Below are positions 13,634 to 21,315 of a stretch of DNA of 64,000 nucleotides, piece by piece. A program made the position numbers and the translations under genes. The DNA lies in contig CAJNOJ010000173.1 in the NCBI GenBank assembly GCA_905250025.1, positions 124,001 to 188,000 on the forward strand, in the 5' to 3' direction. The notes under the pieces were generated by a model. The model saw only the letters and a program-made list of their open reading frames with translations. It had not been told where the DNA came from and did not search any database. Positions within the stretch are counted from its first letter, which is position 1. Every line of letters begins with the position of its first letter. Source of the DNA: Adineta ricciae (Eukaryota; Rotifera; Eurotatoria; Adinetida; Adinetidae).

Positions 13634-16600
13634 ATGATGTCACCGACAGGAATAGCCTCATCGACTAAAGAGAATCTTATACAACGATGGCAGCGTCAAT
13701 TGATTGGTCGCACGCATATAAATTTTCAAGAATTTCTGCATCTACTTCGACAACATGTATGAATAACCTCTCAAACATCTATTTTTAATATTCGAGTAAC
13801 TCGATCTATTCTCTCTTTCTTTTTTTTTCTCAGCTATTGTTAGAAACGCTCTTTTGCATATTTGATCGTGATTCAAACGGGTCACTCTCTGAAGCAGAAT
13901 GGATCGGATCTGTATATAAAGTGGCCGAGTATGTGTACATAATATTCTCTTCTTTAAATGTGTCTTAACAAACATTTGATCATCATTTGTATATTGACAG
14001 GATATCCAATCGCACGAAAGATGTTCGAACACTTGAGCCATTCATACGTGCGTATAGACATGTTTCACAAGGCTCGGATTCACTTACTTTAAATGCATTT
14101 TATATTTTATTCGAGGATCAATCTGTAAAATTGCATATTTTATCTAAAACATTCATTTCCGCTTGTCTCCTTCTCTTTTAGTTTTGCCGCGATTTTGCTT
14201 TCTTATTTATGAACGAGTCACACCCATTGAACATTATGGAATTAACAGATTTACTTCGATCAGTTTCAAAGTACGTATTCATTGATACAAGATGGCGATA
14301 TTTTTTTTCTTTTCATGTTAGTCTCAAATCTGATACAAAATGGCTTTCATGGCTTGCGTATCAGTTTCATACAGCTGTTGGCAAACGTCGTAGTCTAACA
14401 TCGAATGGCATCCCATTCGATGATAGTATGGATCTCGAAACATTTCAAAATAGTTTTTACTTCAAAGTGGTACGTACTACTTCTTTGAATACGATGAAAA
14501 TTCCATGACTTTTCCTTTCTAGCCAGAACTAGCTGATTGTTTGTTTAATTATCTCGACACAGATAGAACGGGACGGTTAACATTAGATAAGTTTATTCGC
14601 AAGTTAGAATTTCTGATAGAAGCAACTGATAATGAAAAAGTCGAATTTTTGTTCAAAATTTTCGACCGTGATGGTTTGTGTATTTGTCTTGGCGGAAAAA
14701 CGAAATGTTCTTCTCGTATGAAATTCTAGGCGACGGAAGCATTGATTTTGATGAAATGAAACTATTACTTCGTTGCTTTTTGGAAGAATCCCCATCGCTG
14801 GATATGGAAGAAACATTAGCGGAATTAACAGCCACTTTATTTCAAGAAACAGACATTGATCAATCAGGAGACATTAGTTTCGAAGAACTAGCGGATGCAT
14901 TAAGGCGAAACGAGCATCTTTTCAAAGTTCTTTCATTGAGGTAATATTTGTTTTGTTAGTAAATCTTCGAATTAATTAGTAATTTTATGATATTTTTCAG
15001 TACGAGCAGTTGGATTCGACCAAAACCTGTTTCATTATGTAAATGTCATAAACGTTCATCAACTGTTCGCGCTTGGATACGAAACAATATTGGTTTGATA
15101 TTCTTCTGGTCGTTATATTCATTTATTTGCACTTGCATTTGTATTGATGTGTTACATGTCTACGTTGGTCAACAACGTGCCCATTTCTTTATTGTCATAG
15201 CACGGTTAAATGGTAAAACAAAACAAAACAAAACGATTTCCTCTTCTTCTCATTATCGTATCTTTCAGGTGGAATGTTGAATTTCAATTGCGCTCTAATG
15301 CTCGTACTGATGCTTCGAAAACATATTACTTGGCTGAGATCCAAAGGCGGAAGCGTCCTGCTTCCCTTGGATAATCATATCGATATTCATAAAACAATTG
15401 GAATTATCATTATGATCGAAACGGCTTTGCATACAATCGCGCATTTCGCTTATCTATGTTTGTATAATCTGTTTTGCTTTCTTGTTTTCGAAAGATTTCT
15501 GTTTGCTAGATTATGTCTTTTATATTTGTTCCTTACAAGAAGATAATGGTTTTCTATGTAATGAGAAAACCAACCTGAATCAATCGATGAGTGATCAAGC
15601 ACTCATCCGCAAACTCTATCGATTCGACGTTTCAACAGACCGATGTGTTCCATTTGGATACCTCGGATGTGGAGGAAATTGGAATCAATTCTATAATGAA
15701 CAATTATGTACCATCCGTTGCAGTAAATAGAGAGTTAATGTTTCCAAGAGTTCGTCCATTTTGATTCGGAATATTTGTAGAAGCATATCGTGATTCATAC
15801 CATCGATTTACCGACGCAATATTTACAGCCAAATTAGGATTGGGATACATTACAGGTGTGCTGGAATTTTTATTAGGCGCGTTGATTTATATTATGTGCT
15901 TACCATTCGTACGAAAAAGTGGCCATTTTCAAGTAAAATCAATCACGAACCCGATGATTAGGGTCAAACTTTAGTTTCTGTTTAGTTATTCTATTGGTGT
16001 CATATGTTGACACTACCATGGTTGATTATCATGCTTGTTCATGCACCGCGTTTCTGGAAATGGGTATTACTACCTGGAGTATTGTATAGCATCGAGAAAA
16101 TTTTACGTTACCGTAAATCACGTTCGAATAAACACGGAGAAACGTTCATAATGGAAGCAATCCTCTTGCCATCACAGGTGATTTCTTCCAAATTAATTAA
16201 CACAATGAGACAAGGAGATATCTACGGACTTCTTTTTTCTAGGTGATTCATTTAGTGATTAATAAGCCGCGAAAATTTACATATAAACCTGGAGATTACA
16301 TCTATGTCAACATCCCGGCTGTGGCTAGTTTCGAATGGCATCCATTCAGCATAAGTAGTGCTCCGGAACATAAAGGTATGAGATCAGAATTGAGATATGA
16401 TGATCATATCTGCTTTCAGATAGTCTTTGGCTTCATGTTCGTGCCAGTGGTCATTGGACCCGACGCGTTTATGAATTGTTTCGTTTGAAACTAAAACAAG
16501 AACATGGAGGTCTCATCAATGATTCCAATGATCTTCGTCTTCGCTTATCAATGCGTTCACGCATGTCAAAAAGTTACATCGATGAACTACGCGGTCTACA

Positions 16601-18679
16601 TCAACAAGAAAACACCCTCCTGTACGATCCTGATCAATGTTCGCAAGCGAAAGCGATTTCGGTGTCGTTTCCATTGGCTAAACAACAGACGAAATCAATC
16701 TGTTCGTCGTGTCAATCAACATTAAGCTTAAAAGACATTCATAGAAATTCGATGAATAGAAGCATTCTGATGAGTCCGAATGATCTGGAGAATTTGACTG
16801 TCGAAGAGATCGAGCAGCTTGCTTATGAAAAAGATGATCAAATAGTAAACGACTTGCAAAGAAAGTTTAGGACAACAGCGAAACTGAACAATCAAAATCG
16901 TCTGACAGTACCCACAGTCAGCGATTATTGCATTCGAATACCTACGCTGGCGTCAACCGAAGATGACTCTACAACAATATCTTATCACGAAACGCGTTTT
17001 TCTGACGCATTAGGTTATTTACGCATGTATAAAAACCAAAATAGAATACAATTCAATTCTCTTCAATTCAATGATCGTGAAGACTTACAAGTAAAAAGAA
17101 GCAATTAGACTTTAAAAAAGGTTTCTAGAATGAACTGTAGGTATTAATCGATGGACCATACGGTGCACCGTCTCAACACATATTCGAAGCTGAACATGCA
17201 GTTTTGATTGCTGCCGGCATCGGCATTACACCGTTTGCATCGATCCTGCAGAGCATTATGTGTCGATTCCGAAATCGTCGACACAAATGTCCGAGTTGTG
17301 ACTTCATTTGGGACAATCCTGAAAGTGAAGAGTTGCGCGTAAAAAAGGTAACAGAACACCTGACGAGTTAATTTCATGTGTTACATTTGATTTCATTGAA
17401 ATTTTTTCAGGTGGATTTTATTTGGGTGACACGCGAACAACGTTCGCTCGAATGGTTTATTAGTTTATTAGCTCAGATGGAAATCGAACAGCAACGTTTA
17501 AGACAAAACTCGGATAAAGGTCCCCTACTCGAAGTTCATTTATATGTCACCAGTGCACAGTCACCGGCCGACTTAAAAGCACTCAATGTGTATCTGTCAT
17601 TAGATTTAATTGGTAGGGAGAATTCTGCAAGTTGTAATGCTATTGATGGACTTCGGCAGAGAACAAAACATGGGCGACCCAACTGGGAACAAGTAAATGT
17701 CTCTTATTATGTTGTTCGAACTTATTAGAATCTTCGTTGACGTCAGAGTAGTTTTTTCCTTTAATCAATAGAATATACCGACATGACTGGAATCGGAAAA
17801 AGAACTCGTATGAATAAATAATAGGTTAACGAAAAAAAAAAAGAAGAAGAAGAAAGAAAAGTAGACTATCGTCACGCTCGACTTTGATTAACGTGACCTG
17901 CTCTATTGGTAAGAGAAAATGAGAAAATGTTTACAAGTCTAATCTGTTTTTCACTGGAACGTTCCGATGTGGGTTTACTTAATTAAATCGACTTGATGCT
18001 TCGATTAATGAAGTCATTTGTTCGTTATTGAGTTTTTCATCAAATAGGATTATAAGAAAATGTAAAGCTTTTCTGCTTACAACTTCATGCGAAAGTCCTG
18101 TTTTAATGCGTAGCGACGCACAGCGACGGTTTTCTGTTACCTCGAAAAGTACATAGAACAATTCATGCTAATGCTAAACACATTTGATGCTTTTAGTTCT
18201 GTTCGTGATATTACTGTTTCTGAAGCTATCATCCCTATATAATTGACACTCGATGATCAATACTCGAAACGCATATATTCTTATCTCATTTCCTTACCAG
18301 TCTTAACTTTTCTTTTTCTCATGCTATTAACAGTTTCTAATCGAGTTTCATCTTCAATTCACTCCTACGCACTTTTTCATCCGGAGACTTCTTGGGCTAC
18401 ATACGTAAATGCTAATGATAGGTATAAAGGGTATGCTGACCTCGCCTATCGTAAACGTTGGGTTACTACTAATTGCGTGAGAATAAAAGAAAACGGCTTT
18501 GAGTTGCGCTTCTATTTAACCATTGCTTTTATTCATATTCATTGTAGGTATTCTCAGAATTACTGTGTCAAAAGAAAGGGAAAATTTCGGTATTTTATTG
18601 TGGTCCACCATCATTATCAGCTGAACTAACAACGAAATGTCGTCAATACGGATTTGCCTTTAAAAAAGAACTATTTTAA
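13634..18679 (+). CDS. NOX5: NADPH oxidase 5-like (calcium-regulated) with inserted Kunitz-like module
   Basis: Membrane enzyme that passes electrons from cytosolic NADPH through FAD and two hemes to O2, giving superoxide outside. Exons: 13634-13756, 13834-13928, 14001-14124, 14182-14270, 14322-14469, 14523-14673, 14730-14940, 15001-15212, 15269-15457, 15543-15722, 15781-15932, 15986-16177, 16243-16375, 16420-17090, 17141-17347, 17411-17692, 18548-18679; total 3291 nt, 1096 aa. Four EF-hand loops are seen (DRDSNGSLSEAE, DTDRTGRLTLDK, DRDGDGSIDFDE and one with DIDQSGDISFEE). Heme histidine pairs are H-x13-H in helix 3 (IDIHKTIG to ALHTIAH) and H-x12-H in helix 5 (YWCHMLTL to MLVHAPRFW). FAD site: EWHPFSISSAP; NADPH site: AAGIGITPFASILQSIM and FYCGPPSLS; C-terminus KKELF. 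Two oddities are described separately: a Kunitz-like exon after helix 3 and a roughly 200-residue insert between the FAD and NADPH parts. The protein is longer than the usual 700-770 aa. Confidence 0.95.
15543..15722 (+). other. Exon encoding a Kunitz/BPTI-like module within NOX5
   Basis: A 180-nt phase-1 symmetric exon of NOX5 (residues about 448-508). It reads as the C-terminal two thirds of a Kunitz domain: YRFDVSTDRCVPFGYLGCGG, then NWNQF and two Cys spaced as in C5-x3-C6. Kunitz features seen: the aromatic FD before C3, the C3-x-x-F-x-Y-x-GCGGN-x-N-x-F core, and the final C-x3-C. C1 is present (FLCNEK); C2, which normally precedes the reactive site and pairs with C4, is missing, so five of six Cys remain. 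The exon sits after the helix with H-x13-H, i.e. in the loop predicted to face outside. Joining the exons on either side without it would create a TAA at the junction, so it appears constitutive. Confidence 0.85.
17693..18547 (+). other. Large last intron of NOX5
   Basis: This 855-bp intron is far longer than the other NOX5 introns (43-96 bp). It holds short open stretches (for example 18243-18629) but nothing I recognise as a gene. Confidence 0.5.
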
Positions 18680-19789
18680 GTTTTCAAATTCTAGACCGTT
18701 CTTTTTTCCTCGATTGTTTGTTCACACTTTTATTTCTATCTTTTTCCTGTGAATAATTTTGATTTGTACTGCTTTGTCAACGACAGATATCTGTGTTTTT
18801 TCTTCTTATTCATTTTGCTTATTAAAAACTTGAATGTACTAAATGACAGTTGTCGATCTGTTGACAATCTCGCCATGACGCACAAAGAACATTGTACGTG
18901 GGCGGAATTCGATCAAAGCAGCGCGAAGCTCCATTAGTATTAGGGTTTTCCTTTGCGGATCAACTGTGGTTTAATGCACTGCACTATCGTTTTTTATTCG
19001 AAGTATGTGCAAAGCTTTATGAAGTGCTCTAATGAGATTAGAATAAATCTCATCAAAGACGCTAATGTGTATGTAGGCATGAATAAAACTTTAATTACTT
19101 TAATCTAGCTATTTATTCGATCTAATGTATTGAAGTAATTGTAAATAACAAACCGGAAAGGAAAGAAGAAAAATAGAGAAGAACGAAGAGAAAGCTGAAG
19201 AGAGGAAAAACGAGAAAGAGAAAAATATTATTGTTTAATTCGTAGAACAGAATAGCTTTTTTTCTTCTTCGAAGTTCTCGTTGTTAAATATTTTATCTAT
19301 TTTGTAATATTCACGCGCGCAACTCCCGTATATCCACCATTGACAAGAAACAATTGAATTCATGCACAGGTATGATGCACTTCCATTAGCAAAATCTCTG
19401 GTTTTCTGCTCCCATCAACCGAGTTTGAAATAATTTCTATTTCAGTGATTAAGATTGTAATTGATAGTGACAAACAGCACTTTCTGAGAATATCTGTAAA
19501 TGACGCTGCATTTGACGCCTACGAATCTGGTCCGATGTATTTTAGTCTCATGTTAATTACGGGATAAATTTGCATTACCTGTCACTTTTGCAGAGTTTTT
19601 TTGTCTTCTTTTCAAACCTTCAACCCTTCCCCCCGAACATGAAATCTGTCACGAAGTGTATAAAGCGTTTTAGTCGTTCATTTTTCTACTAAAAAGATAA
19701 TCATAAGACTTAGTTGCTCCGTGTAAGCACACGTAAATCACCCGTTCTCATTCTATTCAATAGCCGTTTGCTCTATCTTCCATTTTAGA
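18680..19789. other. Intergenic region between NOX5 and the secreted orphan
   Basis: About 1.1 kb, AT-rich, with GA-rich runs near 19155-19220. A possible NOX5 poly(A) signal AATAAA lies at 19082-19087. No coding sequence is supported. Confidence 0.45.
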
Positions 19790-20251
19790 ATGATGATCTT
19801 CTCAACTTATCTTATCGTTTTACTAAGTATCTTGGGTCTTGTTTTAACTACTCCCGTTAAACAAATTTCTTTAAATGACAAATCTGAGGACGTTACATTA
19901 GAACAAGCGTTCCGCAAAGCAGAAAAAACCCTCCATCGTTATTATTATTTAATGAATTCCGATATCGATCATCTTGTCCACGGTATGTTACATATCCTAA
20001 TGAACCATCCAACGTCGTTTCCATTCATTCCGTACCGCGCTATGGATATAGCGTTTAAAAATGTGGCACAGAAATTAGGCGAAGAAGAAGTGAATACGTT
20101 AACCAAACCGCTTCTTTTGGCTCTTGAAGAACATCATCAAACGAAGTCGAAACAACCAATGACGTTTAAATTAAGCGACGAAACCAAGGAGAAAATCGAA
20201 GATGCTCTGGACAAGTTTTTAGATGAAGGTGAATTTGACGCACATTTGTGA
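19790..20251 (+). CDS. Small secreted protein, family not recognised (153 aa)
   Basis: Intronless frame of 153 codons. The first 20 residues (MMIFSTYLIVLLSILGLVLT) form a typical signal peptide, with cleavage likely near T-T-P. The mature part has no cysteine, is rich in Glu, Lys and Leu and looks mainly alpha-helical, with a conserved-looking middle (DHLVHGMLHILMNHPTSFPF) and an acidic amphipathic C-terminal helix. The ATG is one base after a TTTTAG acceptor, so the mRNA may carry a spliced leader or a 5' UTR intron. AATAAA overlaps the stop (TGAATAAA) and a second lies at 20457-20462. Signal peptide, regular codon use and a clean 3' end support a real gene. No function can be assigned. Confidence 0.65.
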   Translation: MMIFSTYLIVLLSILGLVLTTPVKQISLNDKSEDVTLEQAFRKAEKTLHRYYYLMNSDIDHLVHGMLHILMNHPTSFPFIPYRAMDIAFKNVAQKLGEEEVNTLTKPLLLALEEHHQTKSKQPMTFKLSDETKEKIEDALDKFLDEGEFDAHL

Positions 20252-20481: not shown

Positions 20482-21315
20482 TCAAAAATGAAACGGAGAA
20501 ACATTGATCTGTACAATGTAAATTGTTGATAAACGACGACGGTGCAACGGTTCGTTCTTGTACACATGAATTTCCAGTTCATATTCATTGGAATCCATCA
20601 GAATCTGGTCGGTTTTCAGATTCGATCCGTCAAGCACGAACGGAAATGACGAATTGAAATTATTTCGATCGACGAGTTTTCTTGACGTCTTGTTCAAATC
20701 GAGATTTGGTAAAGTGAATAGAATCTTGTTCGAGGGTGTTAAACGTGGTAATGCAATGAATCGATAACGAATATGCATCGCGCGACGAGGTGAACACGTG
20801 GAACGATGTGCACACTTCGATTGACAATCAGTTCTATTGCTACGAAGATAGTTCACAGGACATGGAACATCGATGCACTCGTAAGCACCTTGTGTGTTGA
20901 AACATGTTCGATCTTGACCACAGTCGATCTGAAACTGTTGACATTCGTTGACGTCTAAAAATTTGCGAGAGTTATGGTAGTGAAAGTGAAGAACTAGGAG
21001 ACAAACCTTGACATTGCCCTAGTTCGTTCATTTTGAATCCAATCGGACAAAAACATCGATAGGATCCGATCTGGTTTTCACACATATATTGGCAGATATT
21101 TGTCTGTTCATGACATTCATTGATATCTAAGAACGAAAATAATATGCTAAGAAGACAATAACACAGAAGTATCATTGATAGTTGATCCGTTGATGTCAGT
21201 TTCCTCTTCAGAAACCACCATCACTGTATCAGTTTTCAAATACCTTCACATAATCCTGATTGATAATTTTTTCGATATCCAATTTCACACTTTTCAGGTA
21301 GACAAGTCGAACATT
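20482..21315 (-). other. Hemicentin EGF modules and fibulin-type C-terminus
   Basis: Exon 21244-21315 encodes a degenerate Cys-rich piece. Exon 21007-21126 encodes a calcium-binding EGF module ([19 protein letters not shown], then [11 protein letters not shown]). Exon 20482-20954 encodes a second one (DVNECQQF, then [16 protein letters not shown]), followed by a fibulin-like C-terminal domain starting near [17 protein letters not shown]. The stop is at 20482-20484. Confidence 0.88.

Follow-up and report, generated by a model that had tools for sequence, protein, structure and literature searches.

The window, by which we mean the whole 64,000-nucleotide stretch of Adineta ricciae DNA that was analysed (part of contig C173), contains an intact NOX5-type NADPH oxidase gene. 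The gene occupies 13637–18679 of the forward strand and consists of 17 exons encoding 1,106 amino acids and a stop codon. Exons were picked by eye; all introns have GT..AG ends, and the reading frame has zero internal stops. The tenth exon encodes a Kunitz domain, and the same exon is present in two further copies of the gene, on contigs C128 and C210. The features of the locus are as follows.

13637–18679, forward strand: the whole oxidase gene, NOX5-type, including the additional Kunitz exon (exon model, Pfam, best PDB match NADPH oxidase 5)
13637–14940, forward strand: exons 1–7, calcium-binding EF-hand region (Pfam PF00036 at residues 232–257 and PF13499 at 230–300, both over cut-off)
15001–15212, forward strand: exon 8, first transmembrane helix (gene model; hydropathy peak at residues 342–369)
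15269–15457, forward strand: exon 9, helix 2 to helix 3, ending in phase 1 (gene model; aligns to NOX5 chain positions 229–288)
15510–15722, forward strand: exon 10, Kunitz module, 213 nt, phase 1-1 (Pfam PF00014; genome scan match; same exon in C128 and C210)
15527–15721, forward strand: six Kunitz cysteines, codons starting at 15527, 15557, 15644, 15668, 15707 and 15719 (spacing 9-28-7-12-3; positions after the first computed from the start and the spacing)
15560–15643, forward strand: expanded Cys2–Cys3 segment, 28 residues instead of 15, with the sequon NQS at residue 470 (cysteine pattern, sequon scan)
15781–15932, forward strand: exon 11, end of loop C and helix 4 (gene model; aligns to NOX5 from chain position 300)
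15986–16177, forward strand: exon 12, helices 5 and 6 with the H-x12-H haem pair (gene model; alignment to NOX5)
16243–18679, forward strand: downstream part of the oxidase (Pfam FAD_binding_8, E 1.6e-23; NAD_binding_6, E 7.4e-26)

The NOX5 assignment, made already in the initial annotation of this DNA, stands up well. A 293-residue piece running from helix 2 into the FAD domain has NADPH oxidase 5 as its best PDB match (E 1.7e-49), against E 8.9e-19 for NOX2 and 1.6e-16 for DUOX1; by sequence, then, the enzyme belongs with NOX5 rather than with NOX2 or DUOX. The EF-hand region precedes the membrane core (best Pfam EF-hand score 66 bits, residues about 229–300), FAD_binding_8 (PF08022) and NAD_binding_6 (PF08030) score 83.3 and 91.5 bits, and Pfam found no peroxidase domain in the window protein. 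Both haem histidine pairs, H-x13-H and H-x12-H, can be read from the gene model (H424/H438 and HMLTLPWLIIMLVH); the conserved haem motif of NOX enzymes comprises His101, His115, His209 and His222 in NOX2 (PMC9524095). The first pair is carried by exon 9, where H438 lies in an HT.AH motif and H442 is, by motif spacing, the equivalent of NOX2 His119. Loop E, encoded by exon 12, is very short (HAPRFWKW, aligned to HGPNFWKW of NOX5). Judged by its sequence, the enzyme retains the parts of a calcium-activated NADPH oxidase. The Pfam Ferric_reduct profile remained below its cut-off (26.9 bits vs 28) and matched only at profile positions 75–120 (residues 538–584), presumably because the Kunitz insert splits the match; the NOX5 assignment was kept since the helices align to NOX5 in two stretches flanking the insert. 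Hydropathy (KD, 1.5) picked up four of the helix regions (1, 3, 4 and 5) but not helices 2 and 6, and gave a further signal in part of the nucleotide-binding domain; the topology therefore rests on alignment to solved NOX enzymes. Between the FAD and NADPH domains, residues 715–905 (16533–17090 in the window) form a long, poorly conserved segment, 48.5% identical to C210, which is possibly a regulatory insert.

In the alignment to NOX5, 79 residues lie between chain positions 288 and 300, where the PDB chain has 11. The insert follows helix 3 and precedes the stretch leading to helix 4, and thus falls in the helix 3–4 loop, which we take to be loop C. The gene model accordingly bears out the original placement of the Kunitz exon between the exon for helix 3 with its H-x13-H pair and the exon for helix 4, with a frame that is open across both splice junctions. 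The exon itself had been described as 15543–15722, 180 nt long and symmetric in phase 1. It is indeed in frame and of phase 1-1, but its start has to be moved to 15510 and its length to 213 nt; the module, formerly assigned to residues 448–508, lies in an exon spanning residues 447–518. Starts at 15543 and 15510 are both open in frame, and for the latter the acceptor is the TAG at 15507–15509 (TGCTAG). The extra 33 nt encode 11 residues, YVFYICSLQED, which include the first Kunitz cysteine and have HVFYVCSLPRD as their counterpart in C210. We adopted 15510, and rejected 15543, since the earlier start supplies Cys1 and a stretch kept in this diverged copy. An intermediate acceptor, with the exon beginning at 15540, was rejected as well, as it produces TAA at the junction.

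The introns flanking the exon (TAT/GTTTGT..TGCTAG/ATTATG and TGCA/GTAAAT..TTGTAG/AAGCAT) have regular GT..AG ends. In the window and in C128, exon 9 is followed by the donor GTTTGT, which differs from the common GTAAGT and is not strong; C210 has GTAAAA. The splice model rests on the sequence and the three copies, from which we infer that exons 9, 10 and 11 are joined in vivo. It had also been claimed that skipping the exon would create a TAA. This is true of the window copy, in which the protein would end at residue 447, and of C128, but in C210 the same junction reads as an in-frame GAA. The stop upon skipping is therefore not a general safeguard, and we rejected it as a rule.

That the module belongs to the Kunitz family is supported by PF00014, which matches residues 453–518 of the window protein over profile positions 2–53 of 53 (33.5 bits, cut-off 21, E 5e-8), as the initial annotation would have it. 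A scan of the whole genome gave a Kunitz match of 37.5 bits (E 3.3e-7) at 15527–15721 of the window, and matches at the C128 and C210 loci too; the C210 protein scores 45.8 bits, with a best stretch covering profile positions 15–53 only. All six Kunitz cysteines are likewise found in C128 and C210, and the G-C-G-x-N-x-N-x-F core is present (GCGGNWNQF and GCGGNWNNF). The closest PDB sequences to the module include boophilin, bikunin and the inhibitor domain of APP. A single-sequence AlphaFold2 run on the 70-residue exon alone gave a poor prediction (mean pLDDT 48.8).

What sets the module apart is the segment between Cys2 and Cys3. The canonical loop of Kunitz inhibitors is Cys2-x15-Cys3, usually with Lys or Arg following Cys2. 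Here the spacing is 28 in the window and C128 and 34 in C210, the additional 13–19 residues being inserted directly after Cys2, at the usual position of the reactive-site loop, and the residue that follows Cys2 is Asn in the window and His in C210. Such spacing is unusual among the Kunitz domains extracted from this genome. From 37 Kunitz profile matches we obtained 24 distinct stretches by cysteine pattern and, after dropping two overlapping alternatives, 22 domains, the matches left outside being identical or unlike the cysteine pattern; 18 of the 22 have a spacing of 15, and the remainder are the three oxidase copies and one domain on contig C22 (25). The expanded segment also carries the only N-glycosylation sequon between helices 1 and 6 of the window copy, NQS at residue 470. 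C210 has two sequons between the same helices, NES, which aligns with NQS, and NSS close by, both again in the expanded segment, and the module is probably N-glycosylated. The C210 module (L034, 3168–3398) has in addition a seventh cysteine (CSLPRDCGFPC), which may be free or bonded to another protein.

Searches with two parts of the gene, one from the NADPH domain and one the helix 2–3 exon, yielded seven matches each. Three of these, C173 (the window), C128 and C210, are 100–76% identical, the other four are 52–33% identical, and no further copies appeared at the depth searched. C128 is 95.6% identical to the window DNA over 15260–15960 and 93.4% over 6.9 kb, with all 17 exons equal in length, including the Kunitz exon of 213 nt. 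In C210 all 17 exons recur with unchanged phases; this copy encodes 1,101 residues, 68% identical to the window protein, and has a Kunitz exon of 231 nt; its sequence matches continue collinearly on both flanks of the gene. The exon ends of C128 were projected from the window and those of C210 picked for best match to the window protein, so these are not independent predictions. Nevertheless, all three frames are intact, each with its Kunitz exon, which led us to reject a pseudogene and upholds the original view that the module is part of the oxidase.

Bdelloid rotifers are reported to carry gene pairs together with far more diverged ohnologues, with mean Ks values in A. ricciae of 0.14 for homologues and 1.27 for ohnologues (PMC5916493). 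Ks between the window and C128 is 0.13–0.17, close to the published homologue mean, and by its sequence C128 is a close homologue of the window gene. The synonymous distance to C210 is 1.96 (NG86, a value near saturation from a method that gave no dS in 2 of 9 rows), compared with the ohnologue mean of 1.27, and C210 is most likely an ohnologue. Counts of the telomere repeat TGTGGG, taken as a possible marker of the host, did not exceed those of the reversed control (12 forward and 26 reverse, against 14 and 30) and say nothing about the organism. Tetraploidy probably arose before the bdelloid families diverged (PMC5916493). If C210 is such an ohnologue, the insertion is older than the divergence of the families, and the gain of the Kunitz domain looks like an old, retained one.

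Comparison of the copies also tells which parts of the module may be constrained. In the Kunitz exon, the window and C128 differ at seven sites in 72 codons, six differences being synonymous and one nonsynonymous (P 0.0004, on the assumption that all base changes are equally likely); these two copies differ at 9.0% of intron sites and 4.1% of coding sites. Compared with C210, the Kunitz exon of the window copy retains just 42% identity, the full-length protein 68%. Identity is concentrated in the Kunitz hallmark columns, 14 of 16 of which are identical compared with 12 of 49 other columns; with the cysteines set aside, 8 of 10 hallmark columns are still identical (P 0.0016), although the alignment used contained the compared sequences and favours hallmark columns somewhat. 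Since the exon diverges this fast, only the framework is clearly constrained: the Kunitz fold appears to be under selection, with no obvious sign of this for most of its surface.

How could a Kunitz domain have come to reside in a loop of a multi-pass enzyme? The exon is of domain length and is bordered by phase-1 introns on both sides in all three copies. As a rule, in metazoan domain shuffling class 1-1 domains enter pre-existing phase-1 introns (PMC3927616; class 1-1 modules are treated generally in PMC8001218). The genome contains four Kunitz-free NOX5-like paralogues, on contigs C168, C310, C14 and C108 (L035, L036, L037 and L040), without a Kunitz match in the genome scan, and all four have a phase-1 intron in loop C. 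Three of them (C168, C310 and C14) have a further, phase-0 intron in loop C a few residues later. Compared with solved structures, C168 and C108 have NOX5 as the best match and a short loop. A phase 1-1 Kunitz exon, together with a phase-1 intron in the loops of the paralogues, looks like the usual mark of exon shuffling. The Kunitz junctions are a few codons off the paralogues' phase-1 intron, meaning either that the site has drifted or that the two introns are not exactly equivalent. Entry of the exon at precisely this intron is therefore likely rather than proven.

A Kunitz exon of a comparable type is present elsewhere in the genome. On contig C22 (L047, 1957–2181), a phase 1-1 exon of 225 nt encodes a domain with the spacing C1-x9-C2-x25-C3 and sequons in the same segment; it is one of several Kunitz domains clustered in about 1.8 kb and is followed by cysteine-rich sequence, and no oxidase is associated with it. 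It shows that such an exon type is at hand and is a possible donor type. In a tree of Kunitz domains (about 50 residues), the window, C128 and C210 group together with support 0.984, their next neighbour (0.856) being a canonical-spacing domain on C22, whereas the expanded C22 domain is placed elsewhere. Given this separation and the shortness of the sequences, we claim no donor. A search of a viral contig collection with the helix 2-to-FAD alignment returned 85 pattern matches, none of which was confirmed, and no match was found in a phage collection.

Taken as a whole, the best explanation of these observations is, in our view, a shuffled Kunitz exon in loop C that acts as an extracellular cap or docking module, and we put its chances at about even. 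On this reading, an exon for an autonomously folding Kunitz domain entered, by shuffling, a phase-1 intron within the extracellular loop C region of a NOX5 gene, at a time when duplication had not yet separated C210 from the C173/C128 pair. In the enzyme, electrons donated by NADPH would travel via FAD and the two haems and reach oxygen at the outer face, where the module would sit. The outside-facing position predicted initially agrees with the NOX2 structure, in which loops A, C and E are extracellular (PMC9568551), and by this analogy we infer that the module is exposed on the cell surface. In NOX2 these loops cap the outer haem, loop C is glycosylated at N132 and N149, and His119 lies at the putative oxygen-reducing centre (PMC9568551, PMC9711523). 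Cys1 of the module, residue 453, is 11 residues after H442, the counterpart of that histidine. NOX5 has almost no loop E, which helps to form the cap in NOX2, and the Kunitz module would replace this cap; alternatively, it would be a docking platform near the superoxide outlet. Either way, a disulfide-locked, glycosylated module might stabilise the extracellular face and control access or a partner. We favour the cap or docking reading on account of the position near H442, the near absence of loop E and the restriction of the sequon to the expanded segment, although the cap role is a proposal drawn by analogy from NOX2. A role in oxidant release or partner binding, suggested at the outset, is thus plausible.

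The module may instead be a tolerated passenger, which folds by itself and does no harm, so that selection would maintain only its ability to fold and thereby let the oxidase mature. The rapid divergence outside the framework would fit, as would the four paralogues that do without a Kunitz domain and the preservation of the C210 frame upon exon skipping. On the other hand, the coding exon has been kept in 3 of 3 copies despite the near-saturated synonymous distance to C210, and only one of the seven changes between the close copies is nonsynonymous. We consider this reading unlikely, but with a real chance of being correct.

Kunitz domains are classically protease inhibitors, and the module might be a working one, tethered to the oxidase and blocking a cell-surface serine protease where superoxide exits, so as to protect the enzyme or its surroundings. 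The presence of all six cysteines and the inhibitors among the closest PDB sequences speak for it. The structure of the presumed inhibitory site does not: with 28 or 34 residues separating Cys2 from Cys3, where 15 are normal, and with the extra ones at the reactive site, trypsin-type inhibition is unlikely; Asn or His takes the place of Lys or Arg, and, by eye, the reactive-site stretch is poorly conserved in the alignment of the window with C210. An inhibitor is accordingly quite improbable. More improbable still is a redox-responsive gate, in which the exposed Cys2–Cys4 disulfide and the glycosylated loop would open or close the superoxide outlet. The disulfide is of the BPTI 14–38 type, which is labile in BPTI, and in C210 the seventh cysteine would provide an alternative form of this switch; we know of no other NOX class with extracellular feedback or a partner switch. 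Finally, an annotation artefact, with the exon belonging to another transcript or the contig misassembled, finds some support in the unusual exon 9 donor of the window and C128 but is extremely improbable. Three contigs agree in the exon and in its order, phase and frame, and one of these copies is 68% identical in protein and collinear to either side of the gene; the frame is open at both junctions, and skipping would terminate the window protein at residue 447. The architecture itself, a Kunitz exon within a NOX5-type oxidase, we regard as close to certain.

Metazoan NOX5, represented by the PDB 6sz5 and 8u7y series, which we take to be human NOX5, shares with the window protein the six-helix haem core, the start of the FAD domain and a very short loop E, as well as, by Pfam, the EF-hands and the NADPH domain; its 11 residues correspond to 79 in the window protein, a complete Kunitz domain among them. 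In DUOX, the peroxidase domain is extracellular and N-terminal, whereas the present module is inside loop C. APP is a single-pass protein rather than an enzyme, and its Kunitz domain has canonical spacing, unlike the expanded module of the oxidase. The likenesses are that DUOX, too, is a NOX with an added domain, a haem peroxidase (PMC9524095), and that APP is a membrane protein that gained its Kunitz domain by exon shuffling (PMC3927616). DspNOX of demosponges is NOX5-like with extra elements as well, but these are N-terminal or, in one species, a C-terminal cupredoxin (PMC9524095). In NOX2, loop C is ordered, N-glycosylated and positioned over the outer haem (PMC9568551, PMC9711523), yet the cap there is built of native loops with a disulfide in loop E and not of an inserted domain.

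The claim that no NOX, DUOX or NOX5 with a Kunitz domain is known agrees with our searches of the open-access literature, in which no title or abstract among the papers listed described a Kunitz–NOX protein; the sequence comparison covered the PDB. The word Kunitz is absent from the main text of three studies of NOX and ferric reductase evolution (PMC9421330, PMC9524095, PMC3591440). A NOX tree that includes Adineta vaga has Pfam domains drawn in its figure (PMC7730656), where the Kunitz domain may be visible without comment.

Control of oxygen entry and superoxide release at the outer face varies among NOX enzymes. In this case a compact and well-understood scaffold appears to have been placed, and kept, at the outer face of an enzyme with almost no extracellular cap, apparently through exon shuffling into one loop of a protein that crosses the membrane several times. 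This amounts to a natural experiment: removing or swapping the module would show the effect of an extracellular cap, and Kunitz-free paralogues from the same genome are available for comparison. Bdelloids survive desiccation and oxidative damage, and for such a host the module might mean a lineage-specific change in oxidant production.

The genome contains other oxidase-like sequences. Two, on contigs C182 and C4 (L038 and L039), resemble NOX2 by eye; they are largely single open frames, lack a Kunitz match and have longer loops after helices 3 and 5. In the window, an open frame downstream of the gene (19727–20250) is collinear with C210 and 47% identical to it. A weak match to the same C210 stretch lies on the minus strand near 21268, which suggests a further copy or an antisense coincidence.
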